Origin: Hamadaea flava
Lineage (GTDB): Bacteria; Actinomycetota; Actinomycetes; Mycobacteriales; Micromonosporaceae
Assembly (NCBI RefSeq): GCF_024172085.1
Contig: NZ_JAMZDZ010000001.1
Coordinates: 1 to 64,000, forward strand
Length of the DNA: 64,000 bases
Reading direction: 5' to 3'
A program made the translations under genes and the position numbers. Below the pieces are notes generated by a model. That model had not been told where the DNA came from and made no database searches. It saw nothing but the letters and a program-made list of their open reading frames with translations. Positions 10,656 to 40,871 of the stretch are shown piece by piece. Within the stretch, counting starts at the first letter, position 1; each line of letters starts with the position of its first letter.

Positions 10656-10662
10656 GGACGTC

Positions 10663-11480: not shown

Positions 11481-14400
11481 TCAGCGGCGGGGTCGGCGTA
11501 CGCGGCGGGCCGAGGGGGTGGCCGACGCCGTGAGGTGGTCGGCGAGGTCTTGCGGGCTCGGCCGGTCGAACAGGTCCACGACGTCGACCTCCAGGCCCTC
11601 CTCGGCGACCAGCACCTGGTGCAGCCGGACGAGGTCCAGCGACGTCATCCCGGCTTCGAAGAATCGCGTACGCGGGCCGATGACCGAGCCGGGCAGGTGC
11701 TCGGCGAGCAGGCCGGTGGCGCGTACGGCGATGCGGGTCGCGAGGTCGGACGCCGTTCGCTGGGTGGGAATGTGGACGGGCGCCGGGTCGGGCAGCGCCG
11801 CCCGGTCCAGCTTGCCGTTGGCGGTCACGGGCAGCTCCTTCAGCTTCATCAGGATGGCCGGGGTCGCCCAGACGGGCAGGTGGGTGCGGACGGCGTCGCG
11901 CAGGCCGGTCGGGTCGGGACTGCCGGCGTACCAGGCGATCAGGGCGTTGGCCCGCAGGTCGACGGCGACCGCGGTGACGCCGGGGACCCGCGCGAACGCC
12001 CGTTCCACGCCGTCGAGTTCGATTCGATAGCCCTGCCAGGAGATCTGTCGATCGGCGCGGCCGAGGATCGTCAGGTCGCCGTCGAGTGTGTACCGTCCAC
12101 GGTCGCCGGTGCGATATGGATTCGTGGGCGGGCGACGGTCCGGGTCACCGGCGTAGCCGATCGCCAGTCCCTGCCCGCCGACGACGATCTCGCCGACGGC
12201 GCCAGGCCGGGCGGCCGCGTCCCGGACGATCACCTCGGTGCGGCGGTGGGGGATCGGCAGCGCGATCCGCCGATCCCCGTCCCAGCGGGCCAGATGGGCG
12301 GCCTGCGGCGTCTCCGTCGCCCCGTACAGGTCGTAGACGGTCGCGTTCGGGGCGAGCCGATTCGCCGCGTGGACGTCGGCCGGGCGGGAACCCTCGCCGT
12401 GCAGGACCACGTGCCGCACCCGGGGCAGCGCCACCTCGGTCAGTGCCAGCAGCCGAACCTGCGACGGTGTCATGTGGACGATCGTGGCTTCGGTGTCACG
12501 CAGGAACGCGGCCAGCAGGGGCGGCTGCCCGGCGACCTCCGGCGACGGGACGTGCACGGTCGCGCCGAGCCACAACGGCAGCACCAGGTCGCGGAACATC
12601 GGATCGTGCGCCGCCGGGGCGGTGAAACAGAAGACGTCCGACGGGCTCAGGCCGAGGCTCTCGGCGTACCAGTGGAAGGAGACCGGCAGGGCCTCGGGCG
12701 GGAGGAGGACCACGGCCGCGCGCCCGCTCGTGCCGCTGGTGAGCAGCGCGTGCCCGGCGCCGCCGGTGGGCGTGGGACCCGCGGGCCGCCACTGTTCGGG
12801 CACAGCGGGGTCCACAATGAGCGGTGCGCGGCCCGCGTGCCAGCAGCCCAGGATCGCCGCGGCCAGGGACGGGTCGCGGGTGGCCGCGACCGTGACCAGA
12901 CCCTCAGGCTCGCGCGCGGCGAGATCCGCGGCTTGCCGCAGGTGATCGGCCAGTTCGCCATATGTTTGTACGCCCAGCGCGGTGACCAAGGCCGGTCGGT
13001 CGGTGGGCTGAGCGAGCACGGCGTCCACGAGATCGCGCGGCGTCCCGGCGATGGGCTCCACAATGGGCGGCGAAGCCGACTCGGTCGGCGCGCCCAGGGA
13101 CTCCAACGTGGAACGGCACTGGCTCAGGAACTCGGCCGCGGTCCGGCGGTCCCAGAGATCGGTCGCGTAGACGAGCCGGAGCCGGAAGCCACCCGGGCGA
13201 CGCAGCAGATAGAGGTTGACGTCGAACAGTGCCCAGTGGACGCCCGGCGTTATCTCCGTCAGCGCGTGACCGTCGAGATGCGACGGCGGGCGACCGTGGG
13301 TGAGATCGTTGAACCACACCTGGAACAGCGGATTGCGCGACGGGTCACGGGGCGCACCGGCGAGCGTCACGATCTCGTCGAACGGCACCGATCCGTGCTC
13401 GATGCCGCGGTGCAGCGCGGCCGCGACTGGCGCGATGAGCGACTGCGTGTCCGCGTCCGCCGGTACGCGCAACCGCAGCGGCAGCGTCCGCATGAAGAAT
13501 CCGGCAGCGCGCTGCGACTCCGGTGTGAGCCGGCCCGAGGCGGGTACGCCGACGCAGAGATCTTCGACGCCGGCCCAGTCCGCGAGCACGCGGGCGTATG
13601 CCGCGACCACGACGGCCGCCGGGGTGGGCGCGTGGCGGCCGAGCCAGGCGGTGAACGCCGGGCCGAGATCGGCGTCCACATGCGCGCCACGGAAGGTCGG
13701 GCGCTCGGGCCTGGTCGCGGTGAACGGAAGGTCCAGAGTGGTCGGAGCACCCGCGAGGTGTTCGCGCCAGTACGCACGATCCCGTTCGGCGAGCTCGGGC
13801 CGGATCGGTGTGCGGCGGTTCGGCCGTGCGGCGATCGACGCCGGGTCCTGGTACGCCGCGACGAGGTCGGCCTGCAGGATGTCGAGCGTCTGCTGATCGG
13901 CCACGAGATGGTCGAGCACCAGCACGAGCGTGTCCCCGTCGGCGCCCTGGTGCAGGCCGAGTACGGCCAGCGGCAGCGTTTCCGGCCAGAACGGCGTGTC
14001 GGAGAGGTTCGCTACGAACTCGTCCCGATCCCCATCGGACACCGTGATCACCGAGGAGCCGCCGGGGTGGACGGTACGCCGCAGCCGCCCGTCCACGTCG
14101 GCGATCGTCGTCCGTAGCGCCTCGTGCGCGGCCACGACGTCGTCCCAGGCAGCCTGCAGCCGACCAGGGTCCAGCCGCCCGCCGACGCCCAGCACCCCGA
14201 TCACGTTGTACGCCGGAACACCCGGGAACAGCTGGTGATGCAACCACAGACGCCGCTGCTCGGGGTCGATCTCATCGGTGTCGGCCATCGGCGTCGCGAG
14301 TGGAGCGGACGGGCTGTGCGCCAGCAGTTCGCGCAGTCCGGCCAGGCTCAGGTCGTCGGTCAGGAACGCGGTGACCGGCACATGCACGCCCCACCGGGCC

Positions 14401-16130
14401 AGGATCGCGCCCGACAGCCGCACGGCGGCCAAGCTGTGCCCGCCGGAGGCCAGGAACCTCGCGCCCTCGTCCGCCGGATGCGTGCCGAGCGCGTCCGACC
14501 ACGCCCGGCTCAGCGCATCCGCCTCGGCACCGGCGGCCCGGGTAGCGACCGGGTGGGTCGCAGAATCCCGGGCGGCGGCCGGATCGTCGGCGGCGGAAGA
14601 CCGGGCGACGGCCAGTTCGCGCAACCGGCGACGGTCGCGTTTGCCGTTGCCGGTCACTGGCAGCTCGGGCAGGACGGCGAACCGTGATGGGACGAACGCC
14701 TCGGGCAGCCGCCGGCGCAGCTGTTTCTTGACGGTGTCCTCGTCGAGCGGCTCGCCACCGGTGGTCACGTACGCCCACAGTGTGCCCTCGACGGCGATCA
14801 CGGCGGCGTCCAGCACCCCGGCGACTCCGCGCAGGGCGGCCTCGACCTCACCCGGCTCAATCCGCTGGCCGCGGAGTTTCAGCTGCTCGTCGCCGCGACC
14901 GAGATACTCCAGCCCGCCGCTGGTGAGGCGTACGCGGTCGCCGGTTCGGTAGACGCGGTCGACTCCGCTGCCCTCGGGACCGGGTTGGAAGACCGAGTCG
15001 GTCAGTTCGGGCCGCCCGAGATAGCCCGTGGCGAGCGGCGTACCGCCGACGGCCAGCTCGCCGGGAGTGTCGCCGGAGGCGATCCGACCGTCCTCGTCGA
15101 GCACCATCAGGACGCAGTTGTCGATCGGATACCCGATCAGCACGCGTCCCGGATCGTCGGGGCAGTCCCAGTGCGCGACGTCGATGGTGGTCTCGGTCGG
15201 GCCGTACTGGTTGACCATGCGCGCGGGCAACACCTTCCGCGCCAGGCGGACGGTGTCCGGTGGCAACGCTTCGCCACCGGCGAACAGCAGACGCAGGCTC
15301 GTCGCCGTCTCGACGCCGGGCCAGCGCAGGAACTCGGCCAGCATCGACGGGACGAAGTGGCACCATGTGATCGCGTACCGGGTGATCCAGTCGAGCAGTA
15401 GCGCCGGATCGCGTTGTGCGCCCGGCGGCGGCAGCACGACCTGGCCGCCCGACAGCAGTGGACACCACAGCTCGAACTGCGACGCGTCGAAGCTGAGCGG
15501 GCCCTTCTGGAGGCAGCGGTCGGCCGGGCTGAGCGCGTATTGGCCGCACATCCAGAGCAGCCGGTTGGCCAGCGACCCGATGGGCACGACGACACCCTTC
15601 GGGCTGCCGGTCGATCCCGACGTGTAGAGCACGTACGCAGGATGCGAGCCGTCGACCGGGATCAGCGGCCGCTCGGGTCGATCTGCTCCGGTCAGCGTCA
15701 CCGCGACGGGATGCGGGATCCCTGGCCGGACGGCCGGCCCCGCCGACGCGGAGTCGACGAGCGTCGCGACCGGCCGCGCGTCGGCCAGCACGGTCGCGAT
15801 CCGCGCCGGCGGGTCGTCCGGCGACAGCGGCAGGAACGGCGTACCGGCCTTGAGCGCGCCGAGCATCGCCACCACCATCGCCCGGCTGCGTGGCACGTCC
15901 AGCGCCACGACGTCACCGGGCCGCGCCACCTTGGCCAGGTCGTCGGCGATCACATCGGACTCGGCGTCCAACTGCTGATAAGTGAGCCGGCCGTCCTGAT
16001 CGACCAAGGCGGTCGCGTCGGGCGTACGCCGCGCCTGAGCGCGGATCAGACCGGGCAGCCCGTGCGGCAGTTCGCGGGCGACCGTCCGGCCACGCAGGAT
16101 CGCGAGCTGCGGAGGATCTTGGGTACCCAC
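11481..16130 (-). CDS. Non-ribosomal peptide synthetase, A-T-C-A-T
   Basis: 1549 residues. A1 (about 20-500) has YTSGSTGSPKG at 169-179, FDASQFELW at 214, YGPTETT near 309 and the lysine of GNGKRDR near 497. T1 has GGHSL with Ser566. The C domain (about 620-1010) has DHLVADQ at 740-746 in place of HHxxxDG; the second His and the Asp remain. A2 (about 1030-1445) is degenerate: LTSGTSGRAAV replaces the TSGTTGxPKG loop, while YGATET, YRTGD and ANGKLD persist. T2 has AGMTSLD with Ser1497. There is no TE, so the chain must pass on. By-eye specificity codes are A1 DAFHLAQIDK and A2 DPRHVHLQAK; neither gives a substrate I trust. GTG 16130 is chosen because TACGAT lies 7 bases upstream. Starting with A-T, it probably loads the assembly line. 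Confidence 0.9.
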   Translation of the reverse strand: MGTQDPPQLAILRGRTVARELPHGLPGLIRAQARRTPDATALVDQDGRLTYQQLDAESDVIADDLAKVARPGDVVALDVPRSRAMVVAMLGALKAGTPFLPLSPDDPPARIATVLADARPVATLVDSASAGPAVRPGIPHPVAVTLTGADRPERPLIPVDGSHPAYVLYTSGSTGSPKGVVVPIGSLANRLLWMCGQYALSPADRCLQKGPLSFDASQFELWCPLLSGGQVVLPPPGAQRDPALLLDWITRYAITWCHFVPSMLAEFLRWPGVETATSLRLLFAGGEALPPDTVRLARKVLPARMVNQYGPTETTIDVAHWDCPDDPGRVLIGYPIDNCVLMVLDEDGRIASGDTPGELAVGGTPLATGYLGRPELTDSVFQPGPEGSGVDRVYRTGDRVRLTSGGLEYLGRGDEQLKLRGQRIEPGEVEAALRGVAGVLDAAVIAVEGTLWAYVTTGGEPLDEDTVKKQLRRRLPEAFVPSRFAVLPELPVTGNGKRDRRRLRELAVARSSAADDPAAARDSATHPVATRAAGAEADALSRAWSDALGTHPADEGARFLASGGHSLAAVRLSGAILARWGVHVPVTAFLTDDLSLAGLRELLAHSPSAPLATPMADTDEIDPEQRRLWLHHQLFPGVPAYNVIGVLGVGGRLDPGRLQAAWDDVVAAHEALRTTIADVDGRLRRTVHPGGSSVITVSDGDRDEFVANLSDTPFWPETLPLAVLGLHQGADGDTLVLVLDHLVADQQTLDILQADLVAAYQDPASIAARPNRRTPIRPELAERDRAYWREHLAGAPTTLDLPFTATRPERPTFRGAHVDADLGPAFTAWLGRHAPTPAAVVVAAYARVLADWAGVEDLCVGVPASGRLTPESQRAAGFFMRTLPLRLRVPADADTQSLIAPVAAALHRGIEHGSVPFDEIVTLAGAPRDPSRNPLFQVWFNDLTHGRPPSHLDGHALTEITPGVHWALFDVNLYLLRRPGGFRLRLVYATDLWDRRTAAEFLSQCRSTLESLGAPTESASPPIVEPIAGTPRDLVDAVLAQPTDRPALVTALGVQTYGELADHLRQAADLAAREPEGLVTVAATRDPSLAAAILGCWHAGRAPLIVDPAVPEQWRPAGPTPTGGAGHALLTSGTSGRAAVVLLPPEALPVSFHWYAESLGLSPSDVFCFTAPAAHDPMFRDLVLPLWLGATVHVPSPEVAGQPPLLAAFLRDTEATIVHMTPSQVRLLALTEVALPRVRHVVLHGEGSRPADVHAANRLAPNATVYDLYGATETPQAAHLARWDGDRRIALPIPHRRTEVIVRDAAARPGAVGEIVVGGQGLAIGYAGDPDRRPPTNPYRTGDRGRYTLDGDLTILGRADRQISWQGYRIELDGVERAFARVPGVTAVAVDLRANALIAWYAGSPDPTGLRDAVRTHLPVWATPAILMKLKELPVTANGKLDRAALPDPAPVHIPTQRTASDLATRIAVRATGLLAEHLPGSVIGPRTRFFEAGMTSLDLVRLHQVLVAEEGLEVDVVDLFDRPSPQDLADHLTASATPSARRVRRPRR

Positions 16131-16206
16131 GCCGGGAATCGTAGAGGAGCGGCACCGGTTACGGCAGCCTCTCGCGGCGAGCGCCCGGCGCGGTTAGGGT
16201 GTCCCG
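16131..16206. promoter_or_regulatory. Divergent leaderless promoters of the NRPS and LanB-like operons
   Basis: A 76-base gap. On the minus strand TACGAT (16138-16143) is 7 bases from the NRPS GTG. On the plus strand TAGGGT (16195-16200) is 6 bases from the LanB-like ATG at 16207. Neither has a good -35 box. The shared gap suggests the A-T-C-A-T NRPS and the LanB-like pair are expressed together. Confidence 0.5.
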
Positions 16207-18528
16207 ATGCGGCCGCCGAACGATCATGTGATTCCCCTGCCCGGCACGGGCTGGAGCGTCTATCGCGACGCCCTCGTCCGCTCGGCCGGATTCCCGGTCG
16301 ACGGCCTCGACCAGCTCTCCTCGCCGGGCCTCGCACAGGCGGCGGACTCCTTTCTCGACGGTGGAGCGGACTTCGCCGAAGAGCTGGCCGCGGCTGATCT
16401 GGCGGCAGCCGAGGCGTCCACGGCGATCGCGTCCGGCGACCGGTTCCGGCAGGCGGTCCGCTGGCAGAACCCCGACGTCGCCACGACCATCGAGGGCTCG
16501 CTGCGCCCCGGCCGCACCGCCCGCCGCAACTATCGGGAACGCCGCCGCGACGAGATCGTGGCCAAGTACTGGCAGCGATACTGCGGCAAGAACGACAGCA
16601 TCGGCTTCTTCGGCCCGATGTGCTGGAGCACGCTCGCCGAGGACGGCCCGGCCGTCGCACTCCGGCCGGGTCCCGCCGCCGAACGGGCGCGGGCCGTCCA
16701 CTTCGAATGGTGGGCGCTGACCGCGCTCGCCGACGCCCTCGCGGCCGACCCCCGGCTGCGCTGGTGGTTCCCGGTCCGGCTGCTGCCCCATCTGACACTG
16801 CGCGACCGCGAGATCATCGCGCCGGGCCTGCCGCCGCGGCCGGTCACCGCCGCGGCGGCCGCGCTGATCACCGCCGGTCAGTCCAGCCGGCCGGCCCGGG
16901 TCATCGCGGACGAACTGGTCGCCGCGGGGGTCTTTCACCGCCTCGACGACGTGTACGCACAACTCGGCGAACTGGCCCAGGGGGGACTCGTCCGCCTCGG
17001 GCTCGATCTGCCGATCGACCTCTCGGCCGAACGCGTCCTGCGGGCGTACGCGGAGGGCATCGCCGATCCCGCGGACCGGGCCTGGGCGGGGGAGCGTCTG
17101 AGTCCGCTGTGGACGTTGCGCGACCGGGCCGCAGCCGCGCCGACGGCCGAGACGCTGGCCGCCGCCCTGGCCGACCTCGACGAGGCGTTCACCGAGGCCA
17201 CCGGCCTGCCCGCGCGCCGCCGTCCCGGTCAGACGTACGCCGGCCGCACGCTGTGCCATGTGGACACCAGCCGGGATCTCGACGTCGATTTCGGGCCGCC
17301 GCTGACCCAGAAGCTCGCCGCGCTGGAGCCGCTGCTGCGGTCGGTACGCTGGCTGACCGCCCGGGTGGCCGACGTCCATCACGACGCGCTGGCCGCCTTG
17401 CACGCCGAGTTGGCCGCTGACCTCGGTACGCCCGACGTCCCACTGCACGACCTGTGGTTCCTCGCCCACGGCGTGGTGTTCGGCGCTCAGCGGCCGTCCG
17501 CCCCGGTGGTGGACGAGTTCCTGCGCCGCTGGCGTGACCTGCTCGGGCTCAGCGCCGCCGACTCGGCTGCGCGCGAACTCGTCTTCGCCGCCGACGAGCT
17601 GGCCAAGCAAGTGGAGGCGGCGTTCGAGGACAGCGCACCGGGCTGGTGGACCGCCCGCATCCACAGCCCCGACCTGCATCTGATCGCGGTCGACGAGGAG
17701 GCGCTCGTGCGGGGCGACTACCGGCTCGTCCTGGGCGAACTGCACGTGGCGGCGCCGGCGTTCAACACAGACTTCTTCCGGCTCGGCCATCCCGACTCGG
17801 ATCGGCTCGCCGAGGACCTCCGCAGCGACCTTCCCGAGCCCTGCGTCGACCTGCTGCTGCCGGACGAATGGCCGCGCCACTCGGCCCGCAACGCGAACTG
17901 GATCAAGGGCCGGGCGGACGTGCAGCTCGCGTTCGCCCCGTCGGCGGGGGCGGACCGGGCCCGGCTGCGCCCGGTGACCGAACTGGTCGTGGTGGCCGAA
18001 CCGGATGGCCTGGTCGCCCGGGCCGCCGATAGCTCCTCGTGGCCGCTGCTAGAGGTGTTCGCTGAACTACTGACCATCCAGACGTTCGACACCTGGAAGC
18101 TGGCCGGCTCGGCCGCGCACACCCCACGGGTGGTGGTCGACGACCTCGTCCTGCTGCGGGAGACCTGGCGAACCACCGTCGAAGCGAGCGGCCTGGCCGA
18201 CGCGACCGGAGATCGTGACCGCGTCCTGGCCGTCCGCCGATGGCGGCGCGACCTCGGGCTGCCCGAACGGATCTTCGTCAAGATCGGCACGGAGACCAAG
18301 CCGTTCTACGCCGACCTCGCCGGCCTGATCTCCATCCGCCAGCTGTGCTCGGCGATCCGGGGCGCGCGGGCCACCGGCGGCGATGACGTCGAGTTGACGA
18401 TCACCGAGATGCTCCCGACGGGCGAACAGGCCTGGCTGCCCGACGCCCACGGTCGGCGGTACGCCTCCGAGCTGCGGCTGCAACTGCTCGACCCGCTGAC
18501 GCCGCCGCACGCCGGGAGGATGTCATGA
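16207..18528 (+). CDS. LanB-like protein 1 (glutamylation-type lantibiotic dehydratase domain only)
   Basis: 773 residues, end-to-end similar to the next gene. The fold signs are those of the N-terminal (glutamylation) domain of class I lantibiotic dehydratases: an early KYWQRYCGKNDSIGFFGP (about 120-137), the PRVVVDDLVLLRETWR strand and a C-terminal WLPDAHGRRYASELRLQL that closes this domain. It stops there, so the roughly 270-residue elimination domain (SpaB_C) is absent. In NisB the matching early motif is of the R...R.TPFG type; here it reads GKN..IGFFGP. Known relatives without the elimination domain include PEARLs, which use aminoacyl-tRNA. Inference: an aminoacyl-tRNA-dependent transfer within the NRPS pathway. 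No precursor peptide gene is adjacent. Confidence 0.75.
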   Translation: MRPPNDHVIPLPGTGWSVYRDALVRSAGFPVDGLDQLSSPGLAQAADSFLDGGADFAEELAAADLAAAEASTAIASGDRFRQAVRWQNPDVATTIEGSLRPGRTARRNYRERRRDEIVAKYWQRYCGKNDSIGFFGPMCWSTLAEDGPAVALRPGPAAERARAVHFEWWALTALADALAADPRLRWWFPVRLLPHLTLRDREIIAPGLPPRPVTAAAAALITAGQSSRPARVIADELVAAGVFHRLDDVYAQLGELAQGGLVRLGLDLPIDLSAERVLRAYAEGIADPADRAWAGERLSPLWTLRDRAAAAPTAETLAAALADLDEAFTEATGLPARRRPGQTYAGRTLCHVDTSRDLDVDFGPPLTQKLAALEPLLRSVRWLTARVADVHHDALAALHAELAADLGTPDVPLHDLWFLAHGVVFGAQRPSAPVVDEFLRRWRDLLGLSAADSAARELVFAADELAKQVEAAFEDSAPGWWTARIHSPDLHLIAVDEEALVRGDYRLVLGELHVAAPAFNTDFFRLGHPDSDRLAEDLRSDLPEPCVDLLLPDEWPRHSARNANWIKGRADVQLAFAPSAGADRARLRPVTELVVVAEPDGLVARAADSSSWPLLEVFAELLTIQTFDTWKLAGSAAHTPRVVVDDLVLLRETWRTTVEASGLADATGDRDRVLAVRRWRRDLGLPERIFVKIGTETKPFYADLAGLISIRQLCSAIRGARATGGDDVELTITEMLPTGEQAWLPDAHGRRYASELRLQLLDPLTPPHAGRMS

Positions 18529-20816
18529 CCGACCGCCTTCCGCTGGGCGACACCGGCTGGCAGGTGTGGGCCGATGGCGTACTGCGATCGACCGGGTTCC
18601 CTGCCGACGGGCTCGACCGGCTGTCCGCGCCGTCCTGTGCGGCGGTCGCGGACGATCTCCTGGACGCGATCGCGGACAAGCGCTGGCGGGGCGGTTCCGC
18701 CGACGCCGTGGCGAAGGCAGAGGCTGCGTACGCCGAGAGCTACGCCGCAGCCGACCTGACTGGATCGGCCGAGCTGGCCCGTGTCGCCGCCGACTCGCTG
18801 CTTCGCGAGGCGATCACCTGGCAGAACCGTGATTTCATCGGCTGGTTGGACACAGTGCGCGACGGCGATCCGGCGGACCGCGGCCGACGCCGCCGGCATC
18901 GGGAACGCATCTTGATCCGCTACTGGCAGCGCTACTGCGGCAAGAACGAGACCGTCGGGTTCTTCGGCCCGGTCTGCTGGGTGCGGTTCGACTCCGACCA
19001 GTCCGAACGCGTCCACGTCATCCCCGGCCCGGAGCTGGTCCGGCACCGAGAGGTGTGGCTCGAACGGTGGTGTGTCGACGCGTACGCCCGGCGGCTGGCC
19101 GGCGATCCGGCCATCCGTCGCCGGTTGAGCCCCACTATCGCGCCGCACGTGCACCTTGACGGTCGGCAGGCGCTCCTGCCCGCCCGGACCGCGGTCGCGT
19201 TGACGGCGGCGGAGGCGGCAGCGCTCGGGCTGGCCGACGGTACGCGTACCGCCACGAAGATCGCGGAGGAGCTGGCCTCGCTGGGCCTCGTGCGTACCGG
19301 GGAGGACGCGTACCTGCTGCTCGACCGGCTCACCGAACGCGACCTTCTCGACGACGGTGGCCGGGCCCCGGTCGAGATGGGGGTCGAGGAACTGATCAGA
19401 CCAAGGTTCGCCGGAATCCCCGAAGCGCTGGCCGGACTGGACCGGCTGCGGTCGGCTCGCGACCGAGTGGCCGAAGCCGCTGGAGATCCCGATGAGCTGG
19501 ACGTCGCACTGTCTGCTTTGGACGAGGTGGTCGCCGCCGAGATCGGCGGACCGGCTCGGCAGCACGGCGGCGACACGTACGCCGGACGTACGCCGTGCCA
19601 CGAGGAGACCATCCGCGACGTCGACGTCGTCTTCGGGCCGCAGATGCTGGCCGACCTCGCCCCGGCGCTCGGCATCGTCCTGCAAGCCGCCCGCTGGGTC
19701 ACCGGCGCGCTCGCCGACGCCTACCGGGCCGCGTTGACGGAGATCGCCGACGATCCCGGGATGCGGCTGGGCGACCTGATGTACCTCGCCCAGGGCCTGT
19801 TCTGGACCGGCGACGATCGCCCTGTCGACGCCGTGGCCACCGAGTTCGCTCGGCGCTGGGCAGCGCTGTTCGAGTACGCCGACGGCGACCGCCGCGTCGA
19901 CCGCGACGCCGCCGAGCTGGCCAGCCGGGCGGCCGAGCTGTTCGCGGCCGAGCGTCCCGGGTGGAGCGCCGGGCGTACGCACAGCCCCGACCTGCAGATC
20001 TGCGCCGAATCCCCGGAGGCCATCAACCGCGGGGAGTACCTGGCGGTGCTGGGCGAGCTGCACGCCGCCCGATCGACGCTGGAGTCGTTCGTCCCATGGC
20101 ACGCCGAACCTAGTCGGGTGTGGAACCAGATCGCGGCCGACGGCGGCGCCGACCGGCTGCGCCCGCTCTACCCGACGGGCTGGCCGCGCCACACCGGGCG
20201 CGTGTCGATGTCGCCCGGCCCGTACGGACGCCGGCTCGGGTTCTCGCCGGCGCCCCGGCCCGCCACCGGCGACGTGCTGCCCGCGATGGCCGTCCGCCTG
20301 GACCGGCGGGACGGCGTACTGGAGGCCGTCGAGCCGGACGGGCGGCGGTGGCCGATCGTCGAGGTCTTCTCCGAATGGCTCGCCGTCCACTCGGTCGACG
20401 CGTTCAAACTGCCCGCCGGGGCTGCCCACCAGCCGCGGATCACCGTCGACCGGTTGGTGGTGGCTCGGGAGACCTGGCGGACGACGGCCGCAACCACGGG
20501 ACTGGTCGACCCGGTGAAGGATGTAGACAGGTTCCTCGCCGCCCGGCGACTGCGTCGGCAGCTCGACCTCCCCGACCGGGTTTTCATCAAGATCGGCACT
20601 GAGGTCAAGCCCTGCTTCGCGGACCTGACCTCGCCACACTCCGTCGCGGCACTGGCGTCGATGATGCGTTCGGCCGCGCAACAACACGGCCCCGACGTCC
20701 GCGTCACCATCAGTGAAGCCCTCCCGGGCACCGCCGACGCCTGGTTGCCCGACGCCCAGGGCCGCCGCTACTTCACCGAGCTGCGCATCCAGATCACGGA
20801 CCCGAAAGAGACCTGA
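18525..20816 (+). CDS. LanB-like protein 2 (glutamylation-type lantibiotic dehydratase domain only)
   Basis: 763 residues, a diverged tandem duplicate of the upstream gene. Its ATG overlaps that gene's stop (ATGA) and has an excellent Shine-Dalgarno (GGGAGGA), so the two are made together and could form a heterodimer. The diagnostic YWQRYCGKNETVGFFGP lies at about 133-149, the PRITVDRLVVARETWR strand in the last third, and WLPDAQGRRYFTELRIQI at the end. It too ends at the border of the glutamylation-type domain with no elimination domain. Whether both copies are catalytic, or one is structural, cannot be told from sequence alone. Confidence 0.75.
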   Translation: MTDRLPLGDTGWQVWADGVLRSTGFPADGLDRLSAPSCAAVADDLLDAIADKRWRGGSADAVAKAEAAYAESYAAADLTGSAELARVAADSLLREAITWQNRDFIGWLDTVRDGDPADRGRRRRHRERILIRYWQRYCGKNETVGFFGPVCWVRFDSDQSERVHVIPGPELVRHREVWLERWCVDAYARRLAGDPAIRRRLSPTIAPHVHLDGRQALLPARTAVALTAAEAAALGLADGTRTATKIAEELASLGLVRTGEDAYLLLDRLTERDLLDDGGRAPVEMGVEELIRPRFAGIPEALAGLDRLRSARDRVAEAAGDPDELDVALSALDEVVAAEIGGPARQHGGDTYAGRTPCHEETIRDVDVVFGPQMLADLAPALGIVLQAARWVTGALADAYRAALTEIADDPGMRLGDLMYLAQGLFWTGDDRPVDAVATEFARRWAALFEYADGDRRVDRDAAELASRAAELFAAERPGWSAGRTHSPDLQICAESPEAINRGEYLAVLGELHAARSTLESFVPWHAEPSRVWNQIAADGGADRLRPLYPTGWPRHTGRVSMSPGPYGRRLGFSPAPRPATGDVLPAMAVRLDRRDGVLEAVEPDGRRWPIVEVFSEWLAVHSVDAFKLPAGAAHQPRITVDRLVVARETWRTTAATTGLVDPVKDVDRFLAARRLRRQLDLPDRVFIKIGTEVKPCFADLTSPHSVAALASMMRSAAQQHGPDVRVTISEALPGTADAWLPDAQGRRYFTELRIQITDPKET

Positions 20817-20878: not shown

Positions 20879-21715
20879 GTGACGGTGAGAGCAGCGGCGG
20901 CGGTGCTGATGGTCGTGGGCGTCCTGGTCGCGGGCGTGCTGGTTGCGGGGTGCGGCGGGACGCCTTCCGGCACCGCCGCGCCTGGTGACACGAGCGCGGC
21001 GACCGGTACGCCTTCCGCCGAGCAGACGGTGGGGATCTCGGCCACCGCCGCGCCGACAGCCGCCTCGCCGAAGAGCCCGACGCCGAAGGCGACGGTGACC
21101 CGGTCCGGGCGGAAGATCAAGGTCATGGTGCTCGGCGACTCGATCTCGGCCGGGGCCAAGGACGAGGTGATGAACGGGTACCGCCTCGACCTGCTGAAGA
21201 AGCTCCCGGCGTACGCGATCGACTATGTGGGCTCGTATGAGCGCGGGGACAGCCGGCTGGCCGACAAGGACATGCAAGCCGAAGGCGGCGCCTGCATCCA
21301 CGCGACGCCCTGCAACAGCACCAGCATGTATGAACAGACGGCAGGGTGGATCAACGCCGCCCAGCCGGAGGTCGTGATCATGCAGGGCGGTGGCAACGAC
21401 TATTGCTGCGGGCGCAACGACCAGCCCGACTCGGTGGTGATCCAGGCGATGACCGACTGGATCAACCTCGTCTTCAAGACCAAGCCGGGCGTGTACATCG
21501 TGGTCATCGGCATGACCGACTACCACGACGGCTACAAGAACTGGATCCCCACCTACGTCAAGAGCCAGGCGAAGGCGGGCAAGCGCATCTCGTTCGTGTC
21601 CTACGACGGGATCTCGACCTACGACACGGTCCATCCGAACATCGCCGGATATCAGCAGCTCGCAGGCCGGATCGCGCCCGTCGTGAAACCGATCTTCGAT
21701 AAGCTCCTCGGCTAG
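20879..21715 (+). CDS. SGNH/GDSL-type hydrolase, lipoprotein
   Basis: 278 residues. The N-terminus is a lipoprotein signal: MTVRAAAAVLMVVGVLVAGV followed by the lipobox VAGC, so the cysteine near residue 25 should be lipidated and the protein anchored outside the membrane. A Thr/Ala/Pro-rich spacer (about 28-75) leads to an SGNH hydrolase core: LGDSIS (catalytic Ser), GGGNDY (block III) and DTVHPN (catalytic Asp and His). Such enzymes are esterases, lipases or deacylases. It follows LanB-like protein 2 by 62 bases on the same strand and may belong to the cluster, but could equally be a cell-envelope esterase. Start GTG 20879; GTG 20885 is an alternative. Confidence 0.75.
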   Translation: MTVRAAAAVLMVVGVLVAGVLVAGCGGTPSGTAAPGDTSAATGTPSAEQTVGISATAAPTAASPKSPTPKATVTRSGRKIKVMVLGDSISAGAKDEVMNGYRLDLLKKLPAYAIDYVGSYERGDSRLADKDMQAEGGACIHATPCNSTSMYEQTAGWINAAQPEVVIMQGGGNDYCCGRNDQPDSVVIQAMTDWINLVFKTKPGVYIVVIGMTDYHDGYKNWIPTYVKSQAKAGKRISFVSYDGISTYDTVHPNIAGYQQLAGRIAPVVKPIFDKLLG

Positions 21716-21743: not shown

Positions 21744-21772
21744 AGCTGAGGACCGGAAGCACCGCCTCAGCT
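21744..21772. terminator. Bidirectional terminator between the lipoprotein and ABC permease genes
   Basis: AGCTGAGG (21744-21751) and CCTCAGCT (21765-21772) form a perfect 8-bp stem with a 13-base loop. It separates two convergent genes, and the right arm covers the last codons of the permease. A partial upstream copy (GCTGAGGACCGGA) is nearby. There is no T-run. Confidence 0.5.
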
Positions 21773-22519
21773 GACCGCGCGGGAGAAGCGGCGTACCGCC
21801 CAGAATCCGCCCAGCAAGCCGACGCCGCCCACCACCGCCAGCGCCCGCACCAGCGCGCCGGTGGTGACGTCGCCGGAGAACAGCCCGCGTGAAGCCTCGA
21901 CCGCGTAGTACACCGGGTTCACCTTGGCCAGGGTCTGCAGCCAGTCCGGGGCGAAGGCGATCGGGATCAGGATGCCCGACAGCAGCATCAGCGGAACGTT
22001 GATCAGGTTCGCCAGCGAGGCGAGGGTGGTCTCCGACTCGACCGCCAGCGCGAGCGCGTACGACAGCGAGGTGGCCACGAACGCGACCGTGGACATCAGC
22101 AGGAACGTCAACGCGAGCGGGACGACCTTGACCGGCAGCCCGAACGGGATCGCCACCAACACCAGGATCACCGCCTGGACCAGCAGCATCAGGATGTCGC
22201 GGGCGCACCGGCCGAGCAGCAGCGCCGACCGGCTGATCGGGGTCACCCGCATGCGCTCGATGAGCCCGGCACGGGCCTCGCCGACCAGGCCGATTCCGGC
22301 GAACAACGTCCCGAACACGGCCACCTCGATGAAGATGCCCGGCAGGAACGTCGCGTACGAGTCCTGTTCGGACATACGCAGCGAGCGTTCCCACAACGGC
22401 CCGAAGAGGATCACGAAGTACAGCGGCTGGGCCAGGCCGATGACGCCCCACAGCCGCTGGCGCAGGCTGATCGTCAACGACTGCACCATGATGATCCAGG
22501 TGTCCCGGGCGAGCTTCAC
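21767..22519 (-). CDS. ABC-2 type transporter permease (drug export type)
   Basis: 250 residues with about six hydrophobic segments and the ABC-2 pattern of DrrB-like exporters: RQRLWGVIGLAQPLYFVILFG, then ERMRVTPISRSALLLGR, then a C-terminal PVYYAVEASRGLF just after the last long hydrophobic stretch. It pairs with the ATPase gene immediately upstream (13 bases), the last two genes of the NRPS/PKS unit. The GTG start at 22519 has GGGAG at a good distance. Probable role: export of the cluster's product, giving self-resistance. Confidence 0.88.
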   Translation of the reverse strand: MKLARDTWIIMVQSLTISLRQRLWGVIGLAQPLYFVILFGPLWERSLRMSEQDSYATFLPGIFIEVAVFGTLFAGIGLVGEARAGLIERMRVTPISRSALLLGRCARDILMLLVQAVILVLVAIPFGLPVKVVPLALTFLLMSTVAFVATSLSYALALAVESETTLASLANLINVPLMLLSGILIPIAFAPDWLQTLAKVNPVYYAVEASRGLFSGDVTTGALVRALAVVGGVGLLGGFWAVRRFSRAVS

Positions 22520-22532: not shown

Positions 22533-23477
22533 CTATTCGGCGCGGTCGCGCAGGGAACGCCCGGTGCGGGCGAGGAAGACGTCGTCGAGGCTCGGCTGGT
22601 GCACCTCGATGCTGGTCAGCGTGACGCCGGCGTCGTACAGCCGCTTCAGCAGCAGGGGCGCGGTCTGCGCGCCCTGTCCGACCACGAGCCGGATGACGTC
22701 GCCGTGGATCTCCGCGGTGCGTACCCCTTCGTCTGAGGAGAGCAGGTCCAGCGCGGAGGCGGGGTCGGAGACGCCCAGGGTGACCACGTCGCCGGAGATG
22801 CCGTCCTTGAGCGCCCGGGGCGAGCCGAGGTCGACCACGCGGCCGTGGTCGACGATCGCGACCCGGTCGCACAGCGCGTCGGCCTCCTCCAGATAGTGCG
22901 TGGTGAGCACGATGGTGGTCCCGGCGTCGCGCAGGCGGCGGACCTCGTCCCACAGATGCGCGCGGCTCTGCGGGTCGAGCCCACTGGTGGGCTCGTCGAG
23001 GAACAGCACCTGTGGCGAGTGGACGATGCCGAGGGCGATGTCGACCCGGCGGCGTTGCCCGCCCGAGTAGGTGCGGCAGATCCGGTCGGCGAACGCGGTC
23101 ATGCCGAAGTCGGCGATGGCCTGCTCGGCGCGCACCGCGGCTTCGGATTTCCGCAGGCCGTAGAGGCGGGCCTGCATGATGAGCTCTTCGCGGGCGGTCA
23201 GTGTGCTCCAGGTCCACTGGCCCTGCGCGACGAAGCCGATCCGGCGTCGCACCTCGCGCGGGCGGGCGATCAGGTCCGCGCCCGCGACGGTCGCTTGTCC
23301 ACCGTCGGGTTTGGTCAGCGTCGTCAGCATCCGCAGCGTCGTGGTCTTGCCCGCGCCGTTCGGCCCGAGCAGACCGAAGATCTCGCCGCCGGCCACCTTC
23401 AGGTCGAGGCCCTGGACCGCCTCCACGACGTCACCGCCGGAGCGGAAGCTCTTGCGCAGCCCGGTGGCCTCGATCAT
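22533..23477 (-). CDS. ABC transporter ATP-binding protein (daunorubicin-resistance type)
   Basis: 314 residues. Walker [10 protein letters not shown] (about 37-45), Q-loop [15 protein letters not shown], signature [14 protein letters not shown], Walker [13 protein letters not shown] and the H-loop histidine in [10 protein letters not shown] are all intact. The extra C-terminal 80 or so residues with [18 protein letters not shown] match the DrrA-like regulatory tail (DUF4162). Its ATG overlaps the MbtH stop (ATGA). It works with the permease downstream to export the product of the assembly line. Confidence 0.92.
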
Positions 23478-23746
23478 CGCGCACCGTCCACTGTGACATC
23501 GACGTGCGCGCCATCGAAGTGCGCAGCGTCGAGGTGTGCGGCGTCGAGGTGTGCGGCGAGTGAGCGGGGGCGCAGGTCAGTCCAGTGCTCCTCCACGTAC
23601 GCGAGGGCGGCGTCGCGCGGCGAGGCGGACAGCACGGTGGTCCACCCGGCGGGCACGTCGGCGAACGCGGGCCACAGCGAGTGCTGGCCTTCGTCGTTCA
23701 CGAGCACCAGGAACGTGCCCTCGGGGTCGTCGAACGGATTGGTCAC
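23474..23746 (-). CDS. MbtH-like protein with a repeated C-terminal tail
   Basis: 90 residues; usual members have about 60-75. The core is standard: [33 protein letters not shown] and DLRPRSL, which contact adenylation domains and help them fold and work. After it come four near-repeats of five residues ([20 protein letters not shown]), coded by 15-base DNA repeats. This tail is not part of normal MbtH proteins and resembles a short pentapeptide-repeat run. The GTG start overlaps the stop of the big NRPS (GTGA) and has GGAGGA five bases upstream. The stop overlaps the ABC ATPase start. Likely partners are the adenylation domains of the two NRPSs. Confidence 0.92.
23477..23536 (-). repeat. 15-base tandem repeats coding the MbtH tail
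   Basis: About four imperfect copies of a 15-base unit (plus-strand core GTCGAGGTGTGCGGC) produce the AAHLD-type five-residue repeats. The unit keeps frame, so copy-number change would alter only tail length. Confidence 0.6.
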
Positions 23747-26700
23747 GGTAGTCCTCCGGGGTCTGATCCGGACAGTGCGGTGGTGAGGAGCGGGCCGACG
23801 ACGGCCAGTGCCGAAGGCGACGTCATGCCGTCGTGGTCGCAGTCGACCGGGTGCACGCGCAGGTCGCCGTCGAGACGACCGGCCCACGCGTCGACCGGCG
23901 CGCCGGCTGGATGGTCGTGCCCGGCGGTGAACAGGATCGTGTCGCCCTTGCGTACGGGCAGGTCGGTGCAGGTTCCGGCGAGCCGGAGGTTGTTCGCCAC
24001 CACATGACTCCAGGCGGCGTCGGGCGCGGGCGGTATCGGCTCACCCGGCTCCGGCGGGTACGCGTCGAGCAGCGCGACGATCCCCGGCTCGGCCCCGTCC
24101 TGCTGCCGCCGGGCGGCGACCGCGTGCGCCACGAGCCCGCCGAACGACCAGCCGAGCAGGTGCACCGGCCCGTCCGGGGCGACCTGCCGGATGACCTCGG
24201 CGTACGTGGTGACCAGGTCGTCGAGGCTCGCCGCGAGCGGCCGGTCGCCGGATAGGCCGGGCGACTGGATGGCGTACACCGGCCGGTCGGGTTCGAGGTG
24301 CGTCAGCAGCCCGGCGAAACTCCAGCCCAAGCCGAGCACCGGCGGCAGGCAGAACAGGGGAGCCCGATCGCCGGTCGTCCGCAGGGGGAGCAGCACGTCG
24401 TAGTCGCTGCCACCGCCGCCATCGCTGCTGCTGCCACCGCCGCTGCGGTGCGCATCGGCGAGCCCGGCCGGCGTCGGCCGGTCCAGCAGATCCCGCAGCG
24501 ACACCTCCCGGCCCAATGCTGTCCGCGCCCGCGCGATCAGCCGGGCCGCCAGCAGGGAATGCCCGCCGAGGGTGAAGAAGTCGTCGTCCGGCCCGACCCG
24601 GTCCACCCCCAGAACTTCGGCGAACAACGCGCACAACGCCGCTTCGGCGGCGGAGCGAGGCTGTGTCTCGACGCGCTGCGACGGCGGCGACGGCAGTGCC
24701 CGCCGGTCGACCTTGCCGTTCGGGGTCAACGGCAGCTCGTCCAGCACCACGACGGCCGACGGGACGAGGTACCCCGGCAGCGTGCGCGCCAGCGCCTGCC
24801 GCAGCTCGGCTCCGTCGAGATCACGCCCGGTGGCGTACGCGATCAGGTGCTCGTCGCGGACGATCACGACCGCCCTCGTCACCCCCGGCAGCGCGGTCAG
24901 CGCGTACTCGACCTCGCCGGGCTCGATCCGATAGCCGCGCAGTTTCAGCTGCTCGTCGGCCCGGCCGAGGTACTCCAGCCGCCCGTCCGGACGGAGCCGC
25001 GCCAGATCGCCGGTCCGGTACATGCGCTGTCCGGGTGGGCCGAACGGGCAGACGACGAAGCGAACGGCGGTCAGGTCCGGCTTGCCCAGATAGCCGCGCG
25101 CCAACCCTGCTCCGGCCAGATACAGCTCGCCGGCGACGCCCACCGGGACCGGCTGCAACGCCGAGTCGAGCACGTACGCCTGCGTGTTCGGCAGCGGGGT
25201 GCCGATCGGCGGGTTCGCCTCGCCGCCGGTGACCTCGTCCGAGGTGGACCACACCGTCGTCTCGGTCGGACCGTAGAGATTCGTGATCGGGGCGAGCCGG
25301 TCGGCCAGCCCGGCGGGCAGCGCCTCGGCTCCAGCGAACCGGCGTACGCGCCGGCACAGGTCGGGAGCCACGTCGAGGAGCGCCGACCACAACGCCGGAG
25401 TCGCGTGGACCACGGTCACCGCGGCGGCCTCGGCCAGCGCCGCGACCGCGACCGGATCCCGGTCGCCGCTCAGCACGACCGTCGCACCCTGGACCAGCGG
25501 GGCGAACAACTCGGGCACCGACATGTCGAACGCGGCCGAGCTGACCGCCAGCAGCCGCTCGCCGGGAGCCAGCCCGAGCCGGTCGGCCATCCCCGCGACC
25601 AGGTTCGCCAGCGCGCCGTGCGGCACCAGTACGCCCTTGGCCGGGCCGGTCGAGGCGGACGTGTAGATCGCGTACGCCGCCTCGTCGGGCCGGAACTCCG
25701 GACGGTGTGTGGGAGCCGGTTCGGCGAACGAGAAGGCGGCGCCGGAGTCGTCGAGGATGTGCCGTCGCCGTCCCTCGGGATGGCTCGGATCGATCGGCAC
25801 GTACGCCGCCCCCGTCGCCAGGACGGCCAGCAGCGTCGCGATCAACTCGGGGGCACGGGGCTGGTCGACGGCGATCAGGCGGCCTGGTCCGGCTCCGGCC
25901 GCCCGCAGCTCACCGGTCACCGCGCCGACCCGATCCAGCAGCCGGTCGTAACTCCAGGTCTCGTCAGCGGTGACGATAGCGGGAGCCTCCGGGGTACGGG
26001 CGGCCCACTCGCGGAACCAGTCCACGATGGACCCCGCCGGAACAGTCACCACCGGTCCGGCCAGCGCCGACACGGGCGCTCCCGGTGTCGCCAGCGGCAG
26101 CCGACCCAGCGGCCGGTCCAGGTCCGCCACAGCGCCGTCCAGCAACCGGATCAGCCGCGCCAGCAGCAGGTCGGCCGTCGCCGGGTCGAACAGGTCGGCG
26201 GCGTACCCGAGATGGCAGGTGATCCCGGCCGCCGACCCGTCGCTCCGGCGGTGTTCGACGCATTCGAGGAACAGGTCGAACTGGGCCGTCCCCGGGTCCA
26301 CCGGCGGCAGGTCGCCCACGCCGTCGCCGACGCGGGTCAGCGTGGAGATCACCACCTGGAACAGCGGATGCCGGGCCGCACCGCGCGGTGGGTTGACCGC
26401 CTCGACGACCGCCTCGAACGGCGTCTCCGCGTGGTCGAAGGCGGCCACGTCAGCGGTGCGTACGCGATCGAGCAGCACCCGCAGGCTCGGGTCGCCGCTG
26501 AGGTCGGTCCGCAGTACGAGGAAGTTGACGAAACAGCCGACGAGCTGGTCCAAGGCGGCGTCCGTACGCCCGGCGACCGGAGTGCCGAGCGGGATGTCCG
26601 CGCCGCCGCCGAGCCGCGACAGCAGCGCCGCCAGCCCCGCCTGGAGCACCATGAACAGCGTCGTGCCGGTCGCCCGCGCCGCGTCGAGCAGCCGCCCATG

Positions 26701-29700
26701 CAGACCCGCGTCCACGAATCCGGTCGCGGTCCCGCCCGCCGCCGACGGCTCAGCCGGCCGGGATCGGTCGCCCGGGAGGGCGATCTCCGGCGGCAGCCCG
26801 GCCAACGCGGTCTGCCAGTACGCCAACGAGCCGGGGGAGGCGGAGCGCTGCCAGTGCGTGTAGTCGGCGTACTGTACGGGCAGGGGAGTCCACCTCGGCG
26901 GGCGCCCGGCGACCCGGGCGGCCAACGCCGTACGCAGGTCGGTTTCGAGCACGTCCATCGACCAGCCGTCGGCCGCGATGTGGTGGACGACGAGCAGCGC
27001 GACCGCGCCGTCCGGGGTGTCGACCAGATGTGCCCGTAGTGGGGGCGCGGCCAGATCCATCGGCTCGGCCGCCAACGCCGTGAGCACCAGGGCCAGCGGC
27101 TCGGTCGCCGAGACCCGGGCGACCGGCGGCTGCCAGGACGGCAGAATCCGCTGCGACGGCACGCCGTCGGCCGGTGCGTACACGGTCCGCAGGATCTCGT
27201 GCCGCGCCACTACGTCGCCGAGCGCCTCGGCCAGCACGGCCGCCTCGTCGGCGGTCAGCCGCATCGGCAGGGTCAGCTTCGCCGCGCCGGCCGGCCCGTG
27301 CAGCTCGTCGAGGAACCAGAACCGGCGTTGCGCGTACGACAAGGGGACGCTGGAGGCGCGTGCGGCGGGCGTGATCGGCGGACGCACCGGTGCGGCCCCG
27401 CGTCCGGCCAGTCCCCGGTCGAGGTCGGCTGCGGTCGGATGGTCGAAGACGTCGCGGACGGTGATGCCGGGGAAGGCCGACCGAGCGCGGGCGACCAGGC
27501 GCGCCGCCGCGAGCGAGTCGCCCCCGAGCAGGAAGAAGTGATCGTCCGGGCCGGTGCCGGGCCGATCGAGCACCTCGGCGATGAATCGGGCCAGCAACTC
27601 CTCGCGCGGGTTGCGGGCAGCTCGTCCCGACGCCGCAGCCGTTGCCGGGGCCGACTGTGCCAACGCGCGATGGTCGAGCTTTCCGTTGGGGGACAGGGGA
27701 AACGCGTCGAGCACCACCACGGCGGCGGGGATCATCGCGCGGGGCAGTTGCCGCGCCACGGCGGTTCGCAGCGCGCCGCCGTCCAGATCGGACCCGGTGA
27801 CGAAGCCGATCAGCCGATCTGCGATCACCGTCGCGACGGCGGCCAGCACGCCCGGCTGAGCCGCGAGCGCCGCCTCCACCTCGCCCAGCTCGACGCGTAC
27901 GCCGCCCAGCTTGACCTGGCCGTCGCCGCGCCCGGCGAACTCCATCCCGGCCGACGTACGCCGAGCCAGGTCGCCGGTCCGATACATGCGCCCGCCGGGC
28001 GGCCCGAACGGGCAGGCCACGAACCGCGACGCGGTCAGCCCGGCCCGGCGCTGATACCCGGACGCGAGGCTGTCCCCGGCGACGTACACCTCGCCGACCA
28101 CCCCGTCCGGCACCGGCCGCAACGCGCTGTCCAGCAGAAACACCGTCGTGTTCGGGATCGCGTCGCCGATCAGCGCCACCGGCCGCCCCGGTACGCAGTC
28201 CCACAGGCTGACGCTGTCGCCCGCCTCGGTCGGCCCGTAGGTGTTGACCATCAACCGGCCCGGCGCCCACCGATCCACCAGCTCCTGCGGGCACGCCTCC
28301 CCGCCGACGACCAAGGTGGTCACCGTCGGCAGTCCGCGGTCGGCCGGGATCGACCCGAGCACCGTCGGGGTCAGCTGCGCATGGGTGACTTCGTGCACGG
28401 TCAGCCACTCGGCCAGCGCCTCGCCCACGAGGACCTCGCCCGGTGCCGGCAGGACCAGCGCCGCGCCGGCGTACCAGGCGGTGCACAGCTCCGAGATCGC
28501 CGCGTCGAACCCGAATGCCGCCAACTGCGAGACCCGGGCGTCGGCGGTCACGGCGAATCGTCCGACTTGGACTGCCGCCATGTTGGACAGTCCGGTATGG
28601 GCGACGACGACGGCCTTGGGCGTCCCGGTGGAACCGGACGTGTAGAGCAGGAACGCGGTCTCGCCCGGATGCGGCTCGTGATCGGCCCGAGGCTCACCGG
28701 CACCGGGCTCATCAGCGCGGGGGAGTGGTGTGTCCACAATGGTAACCGGCTGCGCGTCGGCCAGCATGAACGCGATCCGCTCGGGCGGATACTCGACGTC
28801 GATCGGCAGGCAGGCCGCGCCGGTCTGCGCGATCGCCAGCGCCGCCACGGCCAGTTCCGCGCCGCGCGGCAACGCCAGCCCCACCGATGTGCCCGGTCCC
28901 GCGCCTCGTTCGCGCAGCGCAGCGGCCCCCGTACTAGCGGCCGCGACCAGCTCCGCGTAGGTCAGACGCGTCCCGCCCGCGATCACCGCGATCCGGCCCG
29001 GCGTTCGGGCGGCGTGTCGCGCCACCACCTGTGCCAGCGACGCCTGCTCCACGGCCAGGTCGGGGCCACGCCCGGCCGCCAGGATCGTCGCCCGGTCAGG
29101 CTCCGGCTCGAACCGCGCGACCGGTTGCCCCGGGTCCGCGGCGATCATCGCCAGGAAGCGTTCGAACCGGTCCGCGGTCGCCACCGCCACCTCGCGGTCC
29201 AGCAGATCCAAGCGGTACGCCAGACGCAGATGCAGCCGACGCCCGGGCACGACGGTCAGATCCAACGTGTAATGCGTGACGTCGTCTACGCCGTTGATCA
29301 TGAACTTATGGTCGTTGTCGGCCGGTGTGTCGTGTCCCGGAGACCCTGATCGTTCCCCGGCCGCCCTGATCGACTCGGCGGCGGCCGTCGGTTCCGCTGC
29401 CGGGCCGGCTCGTAGGACGTCGATGTCGGGGTAGTTCTCGATGACGATCGCGGTGTCGAACAGGTCGCCGTGCCCAGCCGTGCGCTGCACGTCGGCCAGG
29501 CCGGCGTACTGGTGGGGCAGTAGCGCCGCCTGCTCGGACTGGATCCGGCGCAGCAGCTCGCCGAGCGGCTCGGCCGGGCGCAGGCGTACCCGGGTCGGCA
29601 GCGTGTTGATGAACAGCCCGACCATGTCCTCGACCTCGGGCAGCTCCGGCGGGCGCCCGGCGACCGTCGTGCCGAAGACGACGTCGTCCCGTCCGGCGAG

Positions 29701-32700: not shown

Positions 32701-34869
32701 GTCGGCGGTCTCGGTCGGCCCGTACGCGTTGAGCATCCGCCGCCCGGGCGACCAGCGTTCGGCCAGTTCCGGCGGGCAGGACTCGGAGCCGACGACCAGC
32801 GCCGACACCGTCGGCAACCCGGGCGTCGACCCGGACGTCGGCAGGCTGCCGAGGACGGCGGGGGACAGCTGGACGTGGCTGACCCGCTGTTCGGTAAGCC
32901 ACGCCGCCAGCGGTTCGCCGATGGGGACGAGGTCGGCCGGCGGGACCACGAGGGTGGCTCCGGCGAGCAACGCGGTGCCCATCTCCGAGATCGACACGTC
33001 GAACGACAGCGGGGCGAGCTGCGCCACCCGCGACTGCGCCGTCACCCCGAACAGGCCGACCTGCCCGGTGAGCGTGTTGTCCAGTCCGTCGCGGGTGATC
33101 ATCGCGGCTTTCGGAGTGCCGGTCGAACCCGAGGTGTAGAGGACGTAAGCAAGCTGGTCGCGATGCGCCGTCCACCGCGGAGGATCCGCAGCGGGGTGAT
33201 CGGCGTCCACGTCGACCCATGGCAGACCCGGACGGTCGGCTGTAGACAGCCACACCACCGGCTGCGCGTCGGCGAGCAGCAGGTCGATGCGCGCGTCGGG
33301 CAGCTGCGGGTCGATCGGCAGGTACGCCGCCCCGGACTTGAGCACGGCGAGGAACGCGACCACGGCCGCCGCCGAGCGCGGCACACACACGGCGACGACG
33401 CGCTCCGGCCCCGCCCCGTACGTCCGCAGCCGGGCCGCGAGCCGGTCGGCGCGCTCGGTCAGCTCCGGTCCGGTGAGCGTGCCGTCCGGGGCCACCACGG
33501 TCGCGTCGGTCGCCTCAAGAATGCTGCGCGGCGTCAGCGGCGGCCCTTGCGACAGGCGCACGCGTTCGGCCTGCTCGTCCGCGGTCTCCAGTGACAGCTC
33601 GCCGATCCCGGTCGTGGGGTCTCGAAGCGCGGCGCTGAGCAGGCGCAGATACCGCTGTGCGAGGAGGTCGGCGCTCGTCTCGTCGAACAGGTCCGATCGG
33701 TACACCAGGCGCAGATCGTCGGCGGAGACCTCGATCGCGAGATCGTCCTTGGCCGTGCCGTTGTGGACCGGCTCGTTGCCCGACTCGGGCAGGTAGTTGA
33801 AGGCGAGCTGGCAGAGTGGCGCCACGCCCGGGTCCCGGTCCGGCGCCAGCGCCTCCACCAGGGTCTGGAACGGCACCTGCCGATGGTCGAGGGCTTCGGC
33901 CATCGCGTCGCGGGTCGCGCGCAGGATCTCGGCGTACGCCGGATGGCGGGGCACGGGCACCCGCAGCACCAGGGTGTTGACGAACATCCCGATCAGCCCG
34001 GCCAGCTCCGGCAGGTCGCGCCCGGACACGGGTACGCCCACGACGACGTCCGCCCGGCCGGTCAGCCGGCGCAGCAGTGCCACGAATCCGGCCAGGTAGA
34101 CGGTGAACGGGGTGGTGCGGGCCCCGGCCGCCTGACGGCGTACCGCCTCGGCCAGATCGGGCGGCAACGGCAGCCGGACCTGACCGCCGTCGGCCGCCGG
34201 TCCGGGTCGCCGTGGCCGGTCGGTCGGCAGGGCGTGCACCGGCGGCAGCTCGTCGAGCTGGGCCCGCCAGTACGCCAGATCCTCGGCGAGCGTGGGGTCG
34301 TCGAGGCGGCCACGTTGCCAGGCGGCGTAATCGGCGTACTGGATCGGCAGGTCGGGCAGCTTCGGCGGCTCGCCGCCCGCGACCGCCTCGACGAGCGCGG
34401 TCAAGTCGGTCCGGAAGACCACATAGGACGCTGCGTCGAAGATCGCATGATGCGCGACGAAGACCAGCCAGTAGTCCGCCGGCGCGACCTGCGCCAGCAC
34501 GGCCCGCCACAGGGGAGCCTGCTCCAGCGGGATGGGGCGGGCGGCGTACTCGGCGATGAGGTCGCCGACCCGGCGGTCGGCCTCGGCTCGGGGCAGACCG
34601 CTGAAGTCGAGCCGGCCGACGTCGATCGGCGCCGACCGGTGGATCACCTGGTCGACGCCGCCGTCAGGGTTCTCCCGCAGCGCCGTACGCAGCGTCTCGT
34701 GCCGTTCGACGAGCAGCCGCACCGCCGCCTCGACCACGTCGCCGTCGACGCCCGGGCCGGTCAGGCGTACCGCCGCCGGGACGTTGTAGACCGGGCGGCC
34801 GTCACTGAGCCGGTCGGCGACCCAGATCCGTTCCTGGTCCAGCGAAGCGGCGAAGACCCACTCGGTCAT
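23743..34869 (-). CDS. Three-module NRPS, C-A-T-E-C-A-T-C-A-T-TE
   Basis: 3708 residues. Module 1: C (HHAIFDA, 140), A ([11 protein letters not shown], 578; FDVSISE, 623; YGPTET, 716), T (LGGDSI, Ser959), E ([10 protein letters not shown], 1111; DRETHGRE, 1241). Module 2: C (HHVLLDG, 1607; [10 protein letters not shown], 1441, as in D-L condensation domains), A ([10 protein letters not shown], 2077; YGPTEA, 2211), T (Ser2452). Module 3: C (HHIAADG, 2629), A ([10 protein letters not shown], 3070; YGPTETT, 3199), T (Ser3438). TE: GWSFGG with Ser3575, Asp3602 and His3679. By-eye codes are DVSQLVADTK, DASQLVTDSK and DMSHRALVWK; none is assigned, but the first two are alike. A five-residue repeat insertion sits in the second C domain. 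The ATG overlaps the PKS stop (ATGA). It should take the PKS chain, add three residues (first as D) and release the product. Confidence 0.95.
30403..30501 (-). repeat. In-frame SDTGP repeat inside the second condensation domain
   Basis: Residues about 1457-1489 of the NRPS consist of [10 protein letters not shown] units with small variations (TESGL, TDD), coded by a 15-base tandem repeat. It lies directly after the first C-domain motif ([15 protein letters not shown]), where other C domains run straight into the next strand. Confidence 0.75.
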
Positions 34870-40028: not shown

Positions 40029-40030
40029 CG

Positions 40031-40864: not shown

Positions 40865-40871
40865 CCCCCGC

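Follow-up and report, generated by a model that had tools for sequence, protein, structure and literature searches.

The closest described system is the sna (threopeptin) cluster of Stackebrandtia nassauensis, in which SnaE, annotated as a lantibiotic dehydratase, attaches Thr to an NRPS/PKS product via a peptide bond, as shown genetically by Yu and van der Donk in 2024 (PMC11212132). SnaE acts on an acceptor carboxylate that is set free by Curea, a ureido-forming domain whose motif is EHHXXHDG, and the mechanism proposed by its authors is ATP- and Thr-tRNA-dependent (PMC11212132). About 2,000 NRPS/PKS clusters with SnaE-like genes were counted in the same study (PMC11212132). PEARLs are also described from RiPP clusters, where residues are added to a ribosomal scaffold peptide. 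The bha cluster contains several PEARLs that work one after another (PMC12945691), four are encoded by the ammosamide cluster (PMC12715798), and the ATP-site residues of the PEARL BhaBCTrp are D558, E575, E813, and R815 (PMC11962472). The dehydratases NisB and MibB and the split LanB TbtB, in contrast, glutamylate Ser/Thr with Glu-tRNA, do not use ATP, and are paired with an elimination domain.

In this study, we analyzed a window of 64,000 nucleotides from Hamadaea flava (positions 1 to 64,000 of contig NZ_JAMZDZ010000001.1), in which two adjacent genes for LanB-like proteins, designated LB1 and LB2, lie within an NRPS/PKS cluster. A literature search for a characterized product of the LB lineage returned only threopeptin and the RiPP PEARLs. 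The window resembles the sna cluster in possessing a PF04738 protein without an elimination domain, an A-T-C-A-T NRPS, a PKS, an MbtH-like protein, a thioesterase, and transporters, and in possessing no precursor peptide. However, the sna cluster combines one ligase with a Curea domain, whereas the window encodes two putative ligases that appear to have diverged anciently and has no Curea signature. The window further differs from sna in that the second A domain is degenerate, another large NRPS is present, and a SnaO-type dehydrogenase is lacking among the cluster genes scanned.

Results

LB1 (16207..18528, + strand) and LB2 (18525..20816, + strand) encode proteins of 773 and 763 aa, respectively. 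The two ORFs overlap by 4 bases, and their GC3 values (0.90 for LB1 and 0.88 for LB2) are of the coding type. Lant_dehydr_N (PF04738) was the sole Pfam match in both LB1 (2e-30) and LB2 (1.2e-27), and the elimination domain PF14028 was detected in neither protein nor anywhere else in the window. These results confirm the preliminary description of this DNA, according to which the two coupled proteins carry the glutamylation-type domain only. NCBIfam contained no model for LB1 or LB2, and no usable match emerged when the PDB was searched by sequence with LB1, with LB2, and with their alignment, although the fold comparison described below provided matches. Two other LanB-type loci with PF04738 are present elsewhere in this genome, at 3967390-3972195 and 8667832-8671096; PF14028 was found at three places outside the window, with an elimination domain near each of these two loci.

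The AlphaFold2 model of LB1 had a mean pLDDT of 90 and matched TbtB (Z 21.9), MadB, MibB, NisB, and GodF over nearly its full length. The Z values against the glutamylation domains of TbtB, MibB, and NisB were 19-22, which assigns the LanB glutamylation-domain fold to LB1. Lower-ranked matches of the same model included ATP-grasp ligases such as glutathione synthetase. LB1 also keeps an RRE-like winged helix at approximately residues 188-266, which gave Z values of about 8 against RREs including TbiB1, even though a precursor peptide is missing.

The active-site residues were compared using a profile alignment of the LB relatives with 18 true LanBs. R25, Y121, and R124 of the aminoacyl-tRNA site are common to LB1 and the LanBs, and K128 of LB1 stands at the position where the LanBs have R. 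Across 143 relatives, among them LB2 and a homologue fused to Curea, D489, E511, R651, K698, and R757 were near-invariant, whereas the 18 LanBs have other residues or a gap at these positions. LB1 and LB2 contain an ATP-grasp-like site pattern, consisting of an Asp/Glu pair and a C-terminal E-x-R, that is absent from the LanBs. By motif and spacing, this putative ATP site fits the residues of BhaBCTrp (PMC11962472). Every conserved active-site residue is retained in both LB1 and LB2. The LB proteins therefore resemble the RiPP PEARLs TglB, AmmB2, and BhaB1/B7 in a LanB-like fold without an elimination domain, in the ATP-site residues predicted by motif and spacing, and possibly in acting in series; they differ in that the window has no scaffold gene. 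A dehydratase function for LB1 and LB2 was set aside because the elimination domain is missing and the putative ATP site is present.

LB1 and LB2 were placed in different clades, and their pairing as sisters was rejected by an AU test on a quick tree (p-AU 3.4e-6), and a recent tandem duplication as their origin was thereby rejected. Judged from these sequences, LB1 and LB2 are ancient paralogues. The first members of the tandem pairs of Amycolatopsis taiwanensis and Labedaea rhizosphaerae joined the LB1 clade, and the second members joined the larger clade containing LB2. The other multi-copy sets (the Micromonospora pairs, Actinocrispum, the triple of Streptosporangium minutum, and the loci L054 and L055) appear to be of separate origin.

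NRPS_A (11481..16130, - strand) is divergent from LB1, and the two genes are separated by 76 bases (16131-16206), exactly as reported in the preliminary description. Its previously proposed A-T-C-A-T architecture was recovered by Pfam, but with two qualifications. The second A domain (11481-13000, - strand) is degenerate, reading TSGTSGRAAV at A3 and showing no recognizable A4 or A5 motif by scan, and in the C domain the HHxxxDG position is occupied by LDHLVADQ. In the C-domain tree, this C domain grouped with those of the A-T-C-(A)-T proteins from LB loci with a support of 0.997, and the Curea sequences were separate from this clade. LB and this type of synthetase are therefore considered to form a conserved pair. 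The window and the first 20 relative loci that were checked contained no Curea motif EHHXXHDG, nor did one occur among the aligned C domains of LB partners. The A-domain specificity codes extracted by motif were too uncertain for naming amino acids.

A gene for a GDSL lipase/acylhydrolase (20879..21715, + strand; Pfam 3e-8) lies downstream of LB2 and is possibly co-transcribed with it. The following genes, all on the - strand, were assigned by Pfam to an ABC-2 exporter membrane protein (21767..22519), a DrrA-like ABC exporter ATPase (22533..23477), a 90-aa MbtH-like protein (23474..23746; PF03621, 4.2e-28), a second synthetase designated NRPS_B (23743..34869), a PKS with the domains KS-AT-KR-DH-T (34866..40034), and a free-standing type II thioesterase (40031..40774; 5.7e-31). 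Pfam detected four condensation-type domains, four AMP-binding stretches, three T domains, and a TE domain in NRPS_B, which, with its motifs (a 14-residue E motif, HHVLLDG, and HHIAADG), was read as C-A-T-E-C-A-T-C-A-T-TE. The cluster thus holds a complete NRPS/PKS assembly line with its own exporter and contains no precursor peptide gene in any gap, and both points had been made in the preliminary description. The MbtH-like gene, the only small gene in these gaps, had been overlooked there; it fills the 265-base gap at 23478-23742 and overlaps the end of NRPS_B. Short repeats of the form A(A/G)H(L/F/V)D make up the C-terminal tail of the MbtH-like protein. The type II thioesterase is 43-56% identical to the TE halves of the TE-LB fusions found in relatives.

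The called start of a radical SAM ORF (40650-42716, + strand) overlaps the divergent type II thioesterase gene, and its true start is probably later. On the other side, downstream of NRPS_A, are transglutaminase-like and TPR/polyketide-cyclase-like genes (9795-11454, - strand). No match to these genes was seen in the relative loci, and the cluster border on this side is therefore uncertain.

A contig scan of genomes for relatives of the LB proteins gave 418 matching stretches, from which 74 distinct named loci were kept. NRPS/PKS domains were present on the same fragment in all 74 loci, and an A-T-C-T synthetase, which has no second A domain, was present in 55 of them. NRPS partners thus recur in the genome neighborhoods of close homologues, a survey that the preliminary description had proposed. 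TE-LB fusions occurred in 40 of the 74 loci, and 39 had at least two LB matches on the fragment. Many related clusters contain a single LB copy and one contains three. The gene order A-T-KS / TE-LB / LB / A-T-C-T / KS-AT-KR is frequent in Micromonospora. Streptosporangium minutum has three consecutive LB genes (L104 9989-16823, + strand) beside A-T-KS, TE, and A-T-C-T, and in L054 and L055 two LB genes flank genes for free-standing T and A proteins (LB / T / A / LB). Compared with SnaE, the LB lineage usually has an A-T-C-T partner and commonly shows LB duplications or TE-LB fusions.

A DNA-pattern scan for Curea across 399 genomes of the order revealed a Curea-PEARL fusion (L144 4741-12114, - strand) in a genome of the same family as that of the window. 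This gene encodes one 2457-aa protein with the domains A-T-Curea-A-T-LB, and its predicted domain content mirrors the parts of an sna-type system. It is only distantly related to LB1 and LB2 (about 34% identity).

Discussion

We propose that LB1 and LB2 are probably not dehydratases but PEARL-type amide ligases, dependent on ATP and aminoacyl-tRNA, which would join residues to a carboxylate on the cluster product. We infer this chemistry, and with it the substrate and the amino acids used, from the sequences, the fold, the intact residues, and the conserved partners, together with the lack of a precursor, an elimination domain, and a Curea motif in the window. An LB enzyme would bind ATP and phosphorylate a small molecule from the NRPS/PKS line at its free carboxylate, giving an acyl phosphate. 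An amide would then arise through attack on this acyl phosphate by the amine of an aminoacyl-tRNA, with the tRNA finally released through hydrolysis. The second LB enzyme would repeat the addition or work at another position. Since the ligase is fused to a thioesterase in close relatives, hydrolysis by a thioesterase probably exposes the acceptor carboxylate. The identity of this carboxylate is the weakest point of the proposal, because the explanation offered by Curea is inapplicable here.

The two LB copies most simply represent two additions, made one after the other or at separate positions, because both copies are intact, the bha PEARLs act in series (PMC12945691), and the ammosamide cluster encodes four (PMC12715798). 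Each enzyme would add one residue, and their order of action is likewise a presumption.

The preliminary description had offered two hypotheses: the movement of an amino acid from tRNA to a carrier-bound intermediate, linking tRNA-dependent and thiotemplate chemistry, and the activation of a Ser/Thr hydroxyl on the NRPS chain. The link itself is well supported by the active-site residues, the fold, the missing elimination domain and precursor, and the NRPS/PKS domains at all 74 loci. As an idea, however, it has a precedent in SnaE (PMC11212132). Because SnaE works on an NRPS/PKS product (PMC11212132), the accompanying statement that the known LanB and PEARL relatives act on ribosomal peptides no longer holds. 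As for the acceptor, transfer may be to a carrier-bound intermediate, and a free acid that the thioesterase has released fits equally well. In a specific form of carrier transfer, the partner NRPS, whose second T domain has no working A domain, would receive the tRNA-derived amino acid on that T domain, and thiotemplate elongation would thereby draw a building block from tRNA. The predominance of A-T-C-T partners and the degenerate second A domain in the window agree with such loading, and in most cases the gene that follows encodes a PKS, which would continue the chain from the second T domain. However, an ATP site is unneeded for simple loading, the first A domain or one acting in trans could load both T domains, and no precedent was found for transfer from a PEARL to a carrier, so that we regard this explanation as unlikely. 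We hold in slightly lower regard the version in which either an aminoacyl or an acyl-aminoacyl group derived from tRNA is passed to this T domain and the PKS extends from there.

Another unlikely explanation is that only one LB protein is a ligase and the other is a partner without catalytic activity, an arrangement seen in split and heterodimeric enzymes. LanB-type enzymes dimerise, and the overlapping LB genes are probably co-translated. Both observations are in keeping with a heterodimer, but neither copy has lost any conserved active-site residue, and the occurrence of one copy in many related clusters and of three in another also argues against this explanation.

We consider it improbable that the LB pair glutamylates Ser/Thr or a β-hydroxy group on the NRPS/PKS chain from Glu-tRNA in the manner of LanB, leading to a dehydro residue. 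The fold and the tRNA-site residues are indeed common to the LanB glutamylation domains. Nevertheless, the ATP-site residues are invariant although they are not needed for glutamyl transfer, no PF14028 is present in the window, and the characterized NRPS-associated member makes an amide (PMC11212132); the earlier hypothesis of hydroxyl activation is accordingly disfavored. A separate RiPP-type PEARL pathway merely adjoining the NRPS cluster, with which the RRE-like winged helix of LB1 would agree, is very improbable and was rejected for want of a precursor gene in the cluster gaps, and the NRPS/PKS domains beside all 74 named relatives and the fusion of homologues to TE and to NRPS proteins likewise oppose it.

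The general idea that a tRNA-dependent ligase acts on an NRPS/PKS product is already published for SnaE (PMC11212132). What is new here is the paired LB branch, which has a different synthetase partner and lacks Curea. SnaE, the only NRPS-associated PEARL-type enzyme that we found characterized in the literature, has been explained by ureido chain reversal. The LB lineage has hundreds of relatives, and the Curea feature is missing from their partner C domains wherever these were examined; the rule for recruiting a tRNA-dependent ligase must therefore be broader. The repeated duplication of LB genes, up to three copies, suggests that the ligase copy number may predict the number of residues added. 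Better annotation of these enzymes would keep such clusters from being classed as lanthipeptides.
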